Source: Puniceibacterium antarcticum
GTDB taxonomy: Bacteria; Pseudomonadota; Alphaproteobacteria; Rhodobacterales; Rhodobacteraceae
Assembly: GCF_002760615.1 (NCBI RefSeq)
Contig: NZ_AWWI01000031.1
Span: forward strand, 1-40,008
DNA: 40,008 nt
Direction: 5' to 3'
Shown here: positions 25,927 through 30,023 of the stretch, piece after piece
Layout of the letters: the number at the start of each line of letters is the position of its first letter
Position numbering within the stretch: the first letter of the stretch is position 1
Program-made: the position numbers and the translations under genes
The notes under the pieces: model-generated
Seen by the model: the letters and a program-made list of their open reading frames with translations, nothing else
Database searches by the model: none
Told to the model about the DNA's origin: nothing

Positions 25927-27276
25927 ATGACCGATGAAATCAAGCTGACTTCGGCTCAGGCGCGCGGCGTGCGCTACGCCCGCGAACTCGAAGACCACCT
26001 CAGCTGGCTTGAGACGTTTTCTGGCACGGCGCTTGGCGTTCTGGCAGTCGCCTCGGGGATCTATACCTATCTTGGCGTTTCGACCCTGCTGGATGACACC
26101 GGCGCGATGTCCGTCTTTGCCGCCATCGCCTATTCCGTCGCCGTGTCTGTCGGGATATTTGTATTCTGGTCCTACCTCATGCGGCTGTTCCCCGCCGTCC
26201 GTTCGAAAGGTGCTAAGGCCGGATTGCTGGCGGCCATGGGCCTCGGCTCGCTCGCCATCATTGCAATGTCTTCCTGGCTCAATGCCGCAGCACTGGCTGG
26301 ATCGGCTGCAGTCGAACAGCACCTTGCCAAGACCGTGCAGGATTATCAGGCCTCGCTTGAACGGGTTCATGAGGTTGCGCTGACGGGCCAGTCCTTGGAA
26401 CGCGACGTGGCCCGAGTGCGCCAGAGCTTTGAGGATTTGTCGGAACAAGAAGCTGCAGGGTCTTTGTCCGGTCTTGCAGGGCGCGGCGCTGTGTTCCGTG
26501 TGCTGCGCCAGAAATCTGCAGAGCTTTCTGCGCTTGAAACGCAGATCGCGTCACAGACACCGCTGGTAGAACAGGCCTTTGCCCAAGGCAACACCATCCT
26601 GTCGCGGATGCGGGCGCTGACAGTCGAGCCCGGCCCGGTCGAGGCCAGATCGGTCGAATTTTCCGAATCCGCCGTCCAGCTGCAGGGTCTCATCGCCCAG
26701 ATGCGCCAGCTTTCGGTTGCAGCTCTGGTGGAGCGCGCAGCACAGGATCTGGCGGCCTCGGTCGTCCTGCCAGAGCTCGATGGCAGCACAGAGGCGAACA
26801 GGGGGAATCAGGCCGCGACCATCACCTCGGTGCTCGAAGTTCTGGCGCAGCGCGCGACAACTCTGGAACGCGCCGCTCAGGATGTACTTGCCCTGCAACC
26901 GGCCGAAGAGGTCACTTATACGCCGATTTCCTCGGCGGATGCGGTTATCCTTTACGCGCGCAACTTCGTACCGTCCTGGGCTGGGGCGATCGCAATCGAC
27001 CTGCTGCCCGCGGTGCTGGTCCTCATCCTTTCTGTAACGCAATCCGCAATCCGGTCGGGCCGCGAGGGTGTAGGGGTCGAGGATACCATGACCCTCGCCG
27101 AACTGCGCGCTGCCCTGCATGCCGTGCGCGACGTCGAAGAGGCGATCAATATCCGTGCCACCCCTGTCGCATCGGACATCGCCAGCACCCCCAAGCCTGC
27201 GCCGCCGCCGGATGCGAGCGCAGAGCATGCCCCCTATTCAGCCGAGATCCCCCGCCTGCCAGGAAAATCCGCCTGA
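25927..27276 (+). CDS. Membrane protein with large coiled-coil domain, function unknown
   Basis: 449 residues, not assigned to a family by me. Three hydrophobic helices at about 31-50, 62-83 and 97-125, a long Gln/Glu/Ala-rich region of about 200 residues (130-340) with heptad-like patterns such as SAELSALETQIASQTPLVEQAF, and a fourth helix at about 353-377 (IAIDLLPAVLVLILSVTQ). The coiled coil would lie on one side of the inner membrane between helices 3 and 4, probably the periplasm. The C-terminal tail is Pro/Ala-rich. Ribosome binding site GAGGA precedes ATG 25927. The stop overlaps the ATG of the ClpP-like gene (TGATG), so the two are made together and probably form one envelope complex. 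Confidence 0.75.
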   Translation: MTDEIKLTSAQARGVRYARELEDHLSWLETFSGTALGVLAVASGIYTYLGVSTLLDDTGAMSVFAAIAYSVAVSVGIFVFWSYLMRLFPAVRSKGAKAGLLAAMGLGSLAIIAMSSWLNAAALAGSAAVEQHLAKTVQDYQASLERVHEVALTGQSLERDVARVRQSFEDLSEQEAAGSLSGLAGRGAVFRVLRQKSAELSALETQIASQTPLVEQAFAQGNTILSRMRALTVEPGPVEARSVEFSESAVQLQGLIAQMRQLSVAALVERAAQDLAASVVLPELDGSTEANRGNQAATITSVLEVLAQRATTLERAAQDVLALQPAEEVTYTPISSADAVILYARNFVPSWAGAIAIDLLPAVLVLILSVTQSAIRSGREGVGVEDTMTLAELRAALHAVRDVEEAINIRATPVASDIASTPKPAPPPDASAEHAPYSAEIPRLPGKSA

Positions 27277-28019
27277 TGCGGGGCATTTCCGTCCCGCGCA
27301 TCCTGACAGGGGCGCTGGTGGTCCAGCTGATCATCGGCGCGCTGCTGGTCTTGGGTGATGTGCGCGACGGCGGATTCCATCTGCCGGGGTTCGGCCCCGC
27401 CGCCCCGCGACTGACCGAGCCAGTGCGCCCGGGCGATCAGCGTCGCACCTTCAACCCCTCCCGTGACCGCCCACCTACGTCGCCACTTCGGGATGCAGGC
27501 ACCCTTCCCGACAGGCTGACCCTGACGCAGGAGGACGGCAGCCTCTGGCGGCTTGAAGGCGGAATCGAACCCGGTGACGCCTCGCGCATCATCGCTCAAA
27601 TCGATGCGGCAGAGCCTGCGATCCAAACACTGATCCTGCAAAGTCCCGGCGGTGCAGTCTCCGATGCGCTGGACCTGGGCCGCCACCTGCGTGCACAAGG
27701 ACTCGCCACACGGATGCTGGACGGAGAATACTGTTATTCCGCATGCCCGTATATGCTGGCGGGCGGCGCCACCCGCGATATTGCAACAGGCGCATCCGTC
27801 GGGGTGCACCAACACTATTTTGGTCAAAATACACTGCTGCCCGCCTTTGTCGCGGTCGAGGATATCCAACGCGGTCAGGGCGAAGTGATGATCTATCTTC
27901 AGGAGATGGGCATCGACCCTCTGGTCATGCAGCACGCGCTGACCACGCCTTCGGATGAAATCTATGTTCTTTTACCCGAGGAACTGGAACAGTACGGCTT
28001 CATCCAGACCCAAGACTAG
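27276..28019 (+). CDS. Membrane-anchored ClpP/crotonase-fold protein with an apparent serine-protease triad
   Basis: 247 residues. N-terminal helix at about 9-27 (ILTGALVVQLIIGALLVLG) works as an uncleaved anchor, then a Pro/Arg-rich linker (about 40-75) and a ClpP-like domain. Key positions line up with ClpP: oxyanion loop LQSPGG (121-126), nucleophile Ser155 in CYSACPYM, His178 in VGVHQH (compare IHQP in ClpP) and Asp227 in SDEIYVLLPEE, preceding the PEE..YG end seen in ClpP. Two Cys (153, 157) flank the serine and could form a disulfide. It resembles predicted periplasmic proteins of the COG3904 type. The serine protease activity is inferred; the domain could also be catalytically silent. 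Coupled by TGATG to the coiled-coil gene. Confidence 0.8.
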   Translation: MRGISVPRILTGALVVQLIIGALLVLGDVRDGGFHLPGFGPAAPRLTEPVRPGDQRRTFNPSRDRPPTSPLRDAGTLPDRLTLTQEDGSLWRLEGGIEPGDASRIIAQIDAAEPAIQTLILQSPGGAVSDALDLGRHLRAQGLATRMLDGEYCYSACPYMLAGGATRDIATGASVGVHQHYFGQNTLLPAFVAVEDIQRGQGEVMIYLQEMGIDPLVMQHALTTPSDEIYVLLPEELEQYGFIQTQD

Positions 28020-28158
28020 AGCGCAATCTTGAAAATCTTATTTGGATCTTTGATTCTAAGAGTTCAGCAAATGACTGCCGCTCATTGTCGTTCAGGGTCA
28101 CTGGCCCGCATTTAGCATAAAAACTTTGAACGAATCTCGTTCTCCGCGTCACGCCCCC

Positions 28159-28187
28159 TTGTCGCAAGGCATCACACCTCCTATTTT
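28159..28187 (+). promoter_or_regulatory. Promoter of the structured RNA
   Basis: TTGTCG (28159-28164), exactly 17 bases, then TATTTT (28182-28187). Each hexamer matches the sigma-70 consensus at four of six positions. Transcription would begin near A28195, just before the closing stem of the RNA. Confidence 0.5.
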
Positions 28188-28194
28188 GAATATC

Positions 28195-28395
28195 AGGCGG
28201 GTTTCTGCTCTTCTCGTTTATGGTTGCATTCCGGTGGCCTTAAGCAATTCCGAGGGAGTTGGCTCTGTCCGGATCCTGGTCCGGTTACCTGACGCCCACC
28301 TGTACATACAGGTCCTCGGGAATGAGATAACCACACGGTTGCTGCGGTTCCCGCCGCTGAAAAACGCCTCTTCCAGCCGGAAGAGGCGTTTTTGA
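28195..28395 (+). ncRNA. Candidate structured non-coding RNA, about 165-200 nt
   Basis: A nested fold is readable. The closing stem GGCGGG (28196-28201) pairs with CCCGCC (28350-28355). A second stem CCGGTGG (28231-28237) pairs with CCACACGG (28331-28338, one bulge). A third stem ATTCCGAGG (28247-28255) pairs with CCTCGGGAAT (28314-28323, one bulge). Inside this a three-way junction carries hairpin GTTGG/CCTGAC (28258-28262/28288-28293) with inner CCGGA/TCCGG, and hairpin ACCTGT-ACAT-ACAGGT (28298-28313). A promoter lies at the correct distance upstream and a perfect terminator directly after. No gene follows within range on plus, so a free RNA is more likely than a riboswitch. I could not match it to a known family; 6S RNA fits in length but less well in fold. 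Confidence 0.6.
28360..28393. terminator. Perfect bidirectional terminator after the structured RNA
   Basis: AAAAACGCCTCTTCC-AGCC-GGAAGAGGCGTTTTT: 15 perfect base pairs with A-run and T-run. It ends the candidate RNA on plus and could also end the short minus-strand ORF at 28416-28565. Confidence 0.9.
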
Positions 28396-28415
28396 TGAGA
28401 CGCCATTGTTACAGC

Positions 28416-28565
28416 TCACAGCGGCTGAACGGGCGGTTTCCCATCCAGTAAATCGCTGAACAATGCCTCGAGTTCGGCCCGGCTCACGGCAGAGACAGTC
28501 TCGGGTTCACATTTCTTCTCGCTTCTCACCTCGTTCGATCCAACGAACCGAGTAATCTCAGCCAT
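28416..28565 (-). CDS. Possible 49-residue protein
   Basis: A short open frame from ATG 28565 reads MAEITRFVGSNEVRSEKK and ends with ELEALFSDLLDGKPPVQPL, a balanced, non-low-complexity composition with a plausible amphipathic C-terminal helix. It is divergent from the ECF sigma gene and ends just before the bidirectional terminator, both of which favour a real gene. No strong ribosome binding site is visible and I do not recognise a family. It does not resemble NepR anti-sigma factors. Confidence 0.4.
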   Translation of the reverse strand: MAEITRFVGSNEVRSEKKCEPETVSAVSRAELEALFSDLLDGKPPVQPL

Positions 28566-28602
28566 GTAATTCCGCAGCATCGGTCTTAAGCCTTTTAAGT
28601 TT

Positions 28603-28615
28603 TGTTGTTACAACA
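28603..28615. promoter_or_regulatory. Palindrome in the region upstream of the ECF sigma gene
   Basis: TGTTGT-T-ACAACA is a perfect odd palindrome with 6-base arms, between the divergent 49-codon ORF and the sigma-factor gene. Possible operator. The remaining bases to 28785 show an AT-rich promoter-like region but no clear ECF-type GAAC/CGT pair. Confidence 0.35.
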
Positions 28616-28785
28616 CATACGAACTCAGACAGCGACAGGTTTCAAATCAGGTCAAAAGAATCCGAACCTTCCTTGCAACAGTTTGAAAATCATCCCAAAC
28701 ATTCCTGACGTTTTCCCGGCCCCCCCCGCTAACTTTCGTCATTAAGCATCACGGGGCCCCTGTATTCGGACAAAGGATCACACCC

Positions 28786-29328
28786 TTGGCACAGCTCGTC
28801 GATATCGAAAGTCTGATCGCCCGCGTGGCCCTTGGCGACCGCAAGGCCTTCTCGACACTCTATGATCAGACCTCCGCGAAACTCTTTGGGGTCGCGCTGC
28901 GTGTCTTGAACAACAGGGCCAGCGCAGAAGATGTCCTGCAGGAGACGTATATGAAAATCTGGCGACGTGCGGACCGCTATGCCTCCAACGGGATGAGCCC
29001 GATGAGCTGGCTGATTGCGATTGCCCGCAACACGGCCATCGACAGGCTGCGCGCTACGCGTGACAGCGCGAATCTAGACGACGTATCAAATCACCTTGTT
29101 GCCAGCGGTCCCACGCCCGAACAATCCGTCGTCGCCGCAGGCGAAGCCGCGCGGATCACAGAATGCCTTGGCAAGTTGGAAGCGGAAAAAGGTCAGGCCG
29201 TCAGGGGAGCCTACCTACAAGGTCTGAGTTACGCTGAACTGGCGGAAAAATTCAGCGTGCCCCTGAACACAATGCGGACCTGGTTGCGGCGCAGCCTCAT
29301 AAGCCTGAAGGAATGCATGGAACAATGA
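28786..29328 (+). CDS. ECF sigma factor (SigK-like group, partner of an RskA-type anti-sigma factor)
   Basis: 180 residues from TTG 28786; AAGGA lies at 28772-28776, and no in-frame ATG occurs before residue 60. Region 2 reads FSTLYDQTSAKLFGVALR and AEDVLQETYMKIWRRADRY, with PMSWLIAIARNTAIDRLR; region 4 ends GLSYAELAEKFSVPLNTMRTWLRRSLISLK, a helix-turn-helix. No region 3, as expected for ECF factors. It would direct an envelope- or oxidative-stress regulon in response to release from its anti-sigma partner, encoded next and coupled by ATGA. The length, the coupling and the RskA-like partner are the reasons for the group assignment. Confidence 0.92.
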   Translation: MAQLVDIESLIARVALGDRKAFSTLYDQTSAKLFGVALRVLNNRASAEDVLQETYMKIWRRADRYASNGMSPMSWLIAIARNTAIDRLRATRDSANLDDVSNHLVASGPTPEQSVVAAGEAARITECLGKLEAEKGQAVRGAYLQGLSYAELAEKFSVPLNTMRTWLRRSLISLKECMEQ

Positions 29329-30023
29329 CATCAACTTCAGACACTCCAGAGGATGGGATCCTTGCCGCGGAATACGTCCTGCGTCTACTTTCTCCGGCCG
29401 AGGAAGCCGCATTCGAGGCGCGACTCACGCTTGAGACACACCTGATGGACTATGTAGCGTTCTGGGCAAGCAGGCTGTCCGGCCTCAATGACGAAATCGC
29501 CGAGACGACGCCGCCCAGCCGGACACGCAGACAACTGATGGCCCGCCTGTTCGGGCCAATAGAACCTCTTTCGTTCTGGCAGCGGGCCAGTCTGTGGCAG
29601 GGCCTCAGCTTTGCGTCTATCGTCCTTTCGGGGTTTCTGGCCCTGCAGATGCTGCAAATCCCCGAACCGACACTTCCCGCCGGGCCAAAAGCCCTGCTGA
29701 TCAGCGAAATCTCGGCAGAGGATCAGTCCCTGCGCGTGCTTGCGATTTACAAGGCAAATACAAACCACCTTGAGATCGCCAGAACCGCCGGACAGGCAGC
29801 ACCGGGCCGGGTTCTAGAGCTTTGGGCGATCGCCGAGGGTGCAGCGCCGGTATCTCTGGGTGTTCTGCCGGAGGGGGCAAACACCTCTGTCATCTTGCCA
29901 GAGGGTATGAGCGCCCAGCTTGCCAGCCTGACACTTGCCATCTCAGACGAACCGCCGGGTGGTTCGAACACCGGTGCACCGACAGGCGCTGTTCTGGCTG
30001 TTGGCCAAGTGAGCGAGCTTTAG
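29325..30023 (+). CDS. Membrane anti-sigma factor, RskA-like
   Basis: 232 residues from ATG 29325, which overlaps the sigma-factor stop (ATGA); an in-frame ATG at 29313 is less likely. The N-terminal cytosolic part (DGILAAEYVLRLLSPAEEAAFEARL) is the helical sigma-binding domain, without the zinc-binding HxxxCxxC of ZAS anti-sigma factors. One transmembrane helix lies at about 96-114 (LSFASIVLSGFLALQML), and the C-terminal part is an RskA-type periplasmic domain with the block GRVLELWAIAEGAAPVSLGVLP. It holds the ECF sigma factor inactive at the membrane until its periplasmic domain senses a signal or is cleaved. A weak hairpin CGCCG-GAAAAG-CGGCG follows at 30079-30094. Confidence 0.9.
   Translation: MTSTSDTPEDGILAAEYVLRLLSPAEEAAFEARLTLETHLMDYVAFWASRLSGLNDEIAETTPPSRTRRQLMARLFGPIEPLSFWQRASLWQGLSFASIVLSGFLALQMLQIPEPTLPAGPKALLISEISAEDQSLRVLAIYKANTNHLEIARTAGQAAPGRVLELWAIAEGAAPVSLGVLPEGANTSVILPEGMSAQLASLTLAISDEPPGGSNTGAPTGAVLAVGQVSEL

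Follow-up and report, generated by a model that had tools for sequence, protein, structure and literature searches.

The window, a 40,008-nucleotide stretch of Puniceibacterium antarcticum contig NZ_AWWI01000031.1, contains a 766-base gap between an ORF of 247 aa that ends at 28019 and an ECF sigma factor ORF that begins at 28786 on the plus strand. According to Pfam, the ECF ORF encodes sigma-70 regions 2 and 4 and the next gene an RskA_C anti-sigma protein. The gap harbors a free-standing gene for a structured RNA with its own promoter (28158–28187) and its own intrinsic terminator (28360–28393), as a first-pass annotation of the sequence had proposed. The RNA, of about 160 nt, extends from 28196 to 28355 on the plus strand; its ends were deduced from a closing stem and from conservation. 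We identified it as a 6S RNA (ssrS), a widespread regulator that obstructs RNA polymerase and a member of Rfam family RF00013. A putative coding ORF of 89 aa (28126–28395) also spans the RNA region; homologues carry indels of varying length.

The promoter associates CTTGTC (28158–28163), 17 bases and CTATTT/TATTTT (28181–28187). Read as the hexamers TTGTCG (28159–28164) and TATTTT (28182–28187), it has the spacing of exactly 17 bases noted in the first annotation and, by hand count, shares 8 of 12 bases with the E. coli consensus; a mechanical promoter scan, which needs 9 of 12 matches, reported no promoter. Among 52 places, one of them in the window, 46 have a site in the register.TTG..-N-.TA..T 5 to 9 bases ahead of the RNA, each time with a 17-base spacing, in a search that allowed 16 to 18 bases. 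This register was picked after inspection of the sequences. The identical pattern served to measure the background and occurs in 40 of 3210 stretches of 60 bases taken from the loci, a figure that includes true sites and overlapping loci. The alternative register TTG...-N-TA...T was found in only 15 of the 52 places. The register of the window promoter resembles the rhizobial consensus CTTGAC-N17-CTATAT. In the excerpted text of PMC3616915, neither the hexamer CTTGAC nor CTATAT is found.

The RNA opens with GGCGGG (28196–28201), which pairs with CCCGCC (28350–28355) to form the predicted 6-bp closing stem. In 16 of the 29 relatives, the DNA alignment starts at the opening base of this stem (28196, query position 77). 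A second species of the genus carries the same 160 nt without a single difference, whereas its flanking sequences on both sides differ. The terminator is formed by 15 perfect pairs (28360–28374 with 28379–28393) around a 4-base loop and is followed by a T run. By a simple pattern, a terminator lies behind the RNA in only 6 of the 52 places, window included, versus 7 of 393 in the background, and is therefore not a feature of the RNA's family. It is a local feature.

At the Rfam gathering thresholds, no family was reported in the window. With an E-value setting, an Rfam scan of positions 28000–28800 gave a full-length match to RF00013 at 28199–28354 on the plus strand (model 1–187 of 187), with a score of 43.4 bits, 3 bits under the gathering score of 46.4, and an E-value of 2.4e-7 in 801 bases. 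Genome-wide (5.5 Mb, 189 contigs) its E-value is 4.0e-7 and it is the sole match at E ≤ 1. Neither RF00013 nor the lineage model R1 described below revealed a second, better 6S gene in this genome. Seven further Rfam matches in 28000–28800 are weak (E 0.04–9.8) and all under the cut-off; six of them overlap the terminator hairpin and one lies at 28169–28208. The window RNA shares with RF00013 a closing stem, stems, a central bubble and a terminal arm in the same order and over the full length, and the consensus fold of its relatives reproduces the 6S rod, its 5' bubble strand being open. It differs from the family by its score below the gathering threshold, by a compact apical arm, where the Rfam alignment shows deletions, and by a hairpin already formed in the 3' strand of the bubble. 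It also corresponds to the free-standing gene of about 150–200 nt with its own promoter, normally one per genome, typical of 6S RNA. The locus is thus almost certainly the 6S RNA gene of a Puniceibacterium-like Rhodobacterales bacterium, and 28196–28355 is an ordinary member of a known family, one that escapes the standard threshold.

Ruegeria pomeroyi and Rhodobacter sphaeroides belong to the same order as the window organism. In R. pomeroyi, a 6S RNA of 158 nt was detected by RNA-seq and Northern blot, and is more abundant under carbon than under nitrogen limitation (PMC4809877, in excerpt). The likeness to the RNA of about 160 nt described here is one of size and order. A 6S deletion in R. 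sphaeroides is the subject of a paper by Elkina (2017), cited in the excerpt of PMC8414754. With a 6S RNA already described in the order and a match to RF00013, the window RNA cannot be called undescribed, as the first-pass annotation had called it. That annotation had itself named an Rfam comparison, with RF00013 first, as a check, and a match to a known family as the outcome that would speak against novelty; this is the outcome we obtained, with a full-length match 3 bits short of the gathering score and homologues that exceed it.

In the family, RF00013 matches 111 of 120 genomes (own genome counted) at E ≤ 0.1. Only 22 are above the cut-off; in the other 89, among them the window copy, the best 6S match falls below the gathering score. 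With the Rfam cut-off as the criterion, 98 of the 120 family genomes would appear to lack 6S RNA, against 111 with a match; the RNA named here is one that annotation by threshold would overlook. A plain DNA search found the RNA in 30 of 60 genomes, own genome included. As a partly independent route, we built the lineage model R1 from an alignment (A1) of 51 of these RNAs. The window RNA scores 182.9 bits with R1, a value high by construction, and R1 rates the family copies far above RF00013. R1 matches 70 of 96 genomes of the class, at one place each (own genome and one family member being among the 70), and gave no match in the other 26. We submitted 19 of the 20 best R1 loci, all except the window's own, to an Rfam scan. 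Eighteen of them come from other families, and 15 of these reach the RF00013 gathering score; the other three and the single same-family locus do not. R1 also recovered the RNA in four of the nine family genomes lacking an RF00013 match.

Five family genomes (G018, G061, G087, G096, and G141), four of them rated 97–100% complete, match neither RF00013 nor R1. The gene may have been lost there, may have diverged strongly, or may have been missed by the filter. Conversely, one genome among the 120 (G012, 82% complete) carries two diverged 6S genes, L056 and L117, on contigs C260 and C266.

The region 28187–28395, terminator included, folds at −88.7 kcal/mol (z −4.29), and none of 200 shuffled sequences folds as well. 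The nested stems and the 15-bp perfect terminator that had been read from the sequence are both seen in this fold. The three-way junction with two hairpins also reported there corresponds to the single-sequence minimum-energy fold, in which the bubble is closed; the open form is 3.4 kcal/mol worse. Both hairpins persist in the comparative consensus, where the 5' strand of the bubble is open. This RNAalifold consensus (A1, 51 sequences) is a rod with a closing stem, a large asymmetric central bubble and a terminal arm. Above the lower stems, the bubble is flanked by the stem P2, in which AUUCC (28228–28232) pairs with GGAAU (28319–28323); its five pairs are all present in 46 of the 51 rows. The 5' strand of the bubble (28240–28253) is unpaired. 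The terminal arm (28254–28297) consists of a GGG/CCC base and a covarying apical stem. The 3' bubble strand holds a small hairpin, ACCUGU-ACAU-ACAGGU, at 28298–28313. In this alignment, 14 of the 38 consensus pairs show double changes.

The open fold covaries. In a larger alignment (A3, 100 sequences), which was fitted to the structure of the model, 88.9% of the cells are paired and 28 of the 48 pairs have changed on both sides, in line with the compensatory stem changes anticipated for a genuine structured RNA. Double-change cells amount to 343, versus 118.6 in shuffled alignments and 36–66 in slid controls. A3 is free of antisense matches; an earlier version (A2) had 10 weak ones among 110 sequences. 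In A3, double changes affect 5 of 5 pairs of the closing stem, with 68.4% of its cells paired, and the apical stem of the terminal arm is among the helices that covary. The 3'-strand hairpin is paired in 94.3% of the cells.

We searched for the window neighbors by tblastn within 1.5 kb on either side of 51 homologous places, 43 of which share at least one of them. Upstream, an mmcB-like gene on the opposite strand recurs in 30 places and a DUF6324 gene in 24; downstream, nusB recurs on the opposite strand in 21. A gene that we take to be ribH is shared by 16. The ancestral order was probably mmcB-6S-nusB-ribH, with the sigma pair as a local arrival. The ECF sigma and RskA_C pair (28786–30023) is located between 6S and nusB, and was seen near 6S only in loci of the genus itself.

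This neighborhood bears on the idea that the RNA controls the ECF sigma gene as its leader or as a riboswitch. The gene lies on the same strand as the RNA and starts 392 bases past the end of the terminator stem, and the statement in the first-pass annotation that nothing regulated follows on the plus strand needs this caveat: a sigma factor gene does follow at 28786, past the terminator. However, the 15-bp terminator stands between the two, and an ECF gene was found near the RNA in only 2 of the 51 places and an anti-sigma gene in 3, all in its own genus. No link to the sigma pair is therefore supported, and we rejected the leader on these counts as vanishingly improbable. The proposal of a new, trans-acting structured RNA drew on the lack of any Rfam family at gathering score in the window; the full-length RF00013 match, sole in the genome, and the homologues above the cut-off rule out an unknown RNA class, and leave this proposal extremely improbable. 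Its suggestion of a trans-acting RNA of housekeeping type agrees with what membership of the 6S family would predict. The RNA might also be a 6S relative that binds polymerase with an altered partner and lacks a product RNA (pRNA) cycle, like Ms1, which binds the core enzyme (PMC9130861, in excerpt). Its low RF00013 score would fit such a relative, and the sequence alone is silent on the form of polymerase bound. Against it stand the continuous homology with 6S RNAs above the threshold and the conservation of the bubble strand and of an alternative helix, both needed for pRNA release, and we regard it as highly improbable.

As an ordinary 6S RNA, the molecule would act as its relatives do. Background on 6S function comes from excerpts of PMC8876501: 6S RNA blocks RNA polymerase carrying the primary sigma factor, and pRNA made from the 5' bubble strand into P2 leads to release. 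In E. coli-type 6S RNAs, a 9-bp hairpin forms in the 3' bubble strand after P2 is unwound; in Bacillus subtilis 6S-1 RNA, a small 3'-bubble hairpin is already present. By analogy with the family, the housekeeping-type promoter would produce a free rod of about 160 nt whose central bubble mimics an open promoter and traps the primary-sigma holoenzyme as growth slows. When nucleotides return, the polymerase would copy a short pRNA off the 5' bubble strand. Its start is predicted near U28240/U28241, a position that we assume from analogy with U44 of E. coli, and it would run into P2. Synthesis would unwind P2 and free its 3' strand GGGAAU for pairing with UUCCGAGG, the distal part of the 5' bubble strand; the bubble would collapse and the polymerase would be released.

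The last step would rely on a second helix. The segment UUCCGAGG (28248–28255) is complementary to CCUCGGGA (28314–28321), which lies beside the hairpin 28298–28313, and the resulting "collapse helix" excludes P2. This helix also covaries, less firmly than the open fold. It shows 23 double-change cells versus 5.1 in shuffled alignments, with none of 500 as high; there is no enrichment of further pair types, for which 124 of the 500 shuffles are as high. In two of its pairs the base on the 3' side stays unpaired in the open fold; these pairs show double changes in seven and five sequences, which a rough tree drawn from the RNA itself resolves into six and three events with both bases changed. 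A partner shifted by −1 does equally well in pairing (91.7 vs. 89.5%) and covariation score (0.214 vs. 0.212), but has only 5 double-change cells against 23. Among 25 unique divergent arm pairs (26 rows), the mean longest helix is 7.8 for own arms and 5.9 for swapped arms, with 0 of 5000 permutations as good. At 18 loci from other families, own arms form a duplex of −10.0 kcal/mol versus −8.7 for swapped arms (26 of 10000 permutations), whereas for helix length 760 of 10000 permutations do as well, a non-significant difference.

The collapse helix, with at least 5 pairs, appears in the minimum-energy fold of 33 of 100 sequences when free, of 67 when the pRNA site is blocked, and of 27 when another stretch is blocked as a control. 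The window RNA contains it in all three states, the free one included, and this result, like that of the −1 slide, speaks against the helix.

These observations, with the caveats given, suggest that a release step of the Bacillus type may operate in alphaproteobacterial 6S RNAs, the one modestly new point of this analysis. With its small hairpin in the 3' bubble strand and its complementary collapse arms, the window RNA resembles B. subtilis 6S-1 RNA (PMC8876501, in excerpt), and differs from the E. coli type, where the excerpt describes an extended 3'-bubble hairpin instead of a collapse helix. Unlike the window organism, B. subtilis belongs to another phylum, and the helix proposed here is drawn from comparison and folding alone. 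Alphaproteobacterial 6S RNAs might then be conserved two-state switches, in which the 3' strand of P2 pairs either with P2, polymerase being held, or with the distal 5' bubble strand once pRNA has unwound P2; in our judgment this wider proposal has an equal chance of holding or failing. If true, the Bacillus-type release helix would be general in the class rather than a peculiarity of Firmicutes and Aquifex. The literature that we found on a 6S collapse helix concerns B. subtilis (PMC8876501, in excerpt; PMC12005410), and an alphaproteobacterial report may exist. The covarying helix offers a cheap and testable hypothesis on polymerase release at outgrowth.

Gene neighbors may differ between the window 6S gene and those of R. 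pomeroyi and R. sphaeroides. In the latter, a membrane protein gene related to salt stress lies just downstream of 6S on the other strand (PMC8414754, in excerpt). The fau gene, encoding 5-formyltetrahydrofolate cyclo-ligase, is often linked to 6S in Proteobacteria (PMC7641849, in excerpt); such a linkage was ruled out here, the gene being on another contig. Two adjacent ORFs of 449 and 247 aa (25927–28019) gave no Pfam match. Each is located upstream of 6S in 7 of the 51 places, and the 449-aa ORF lies downstream in 3.
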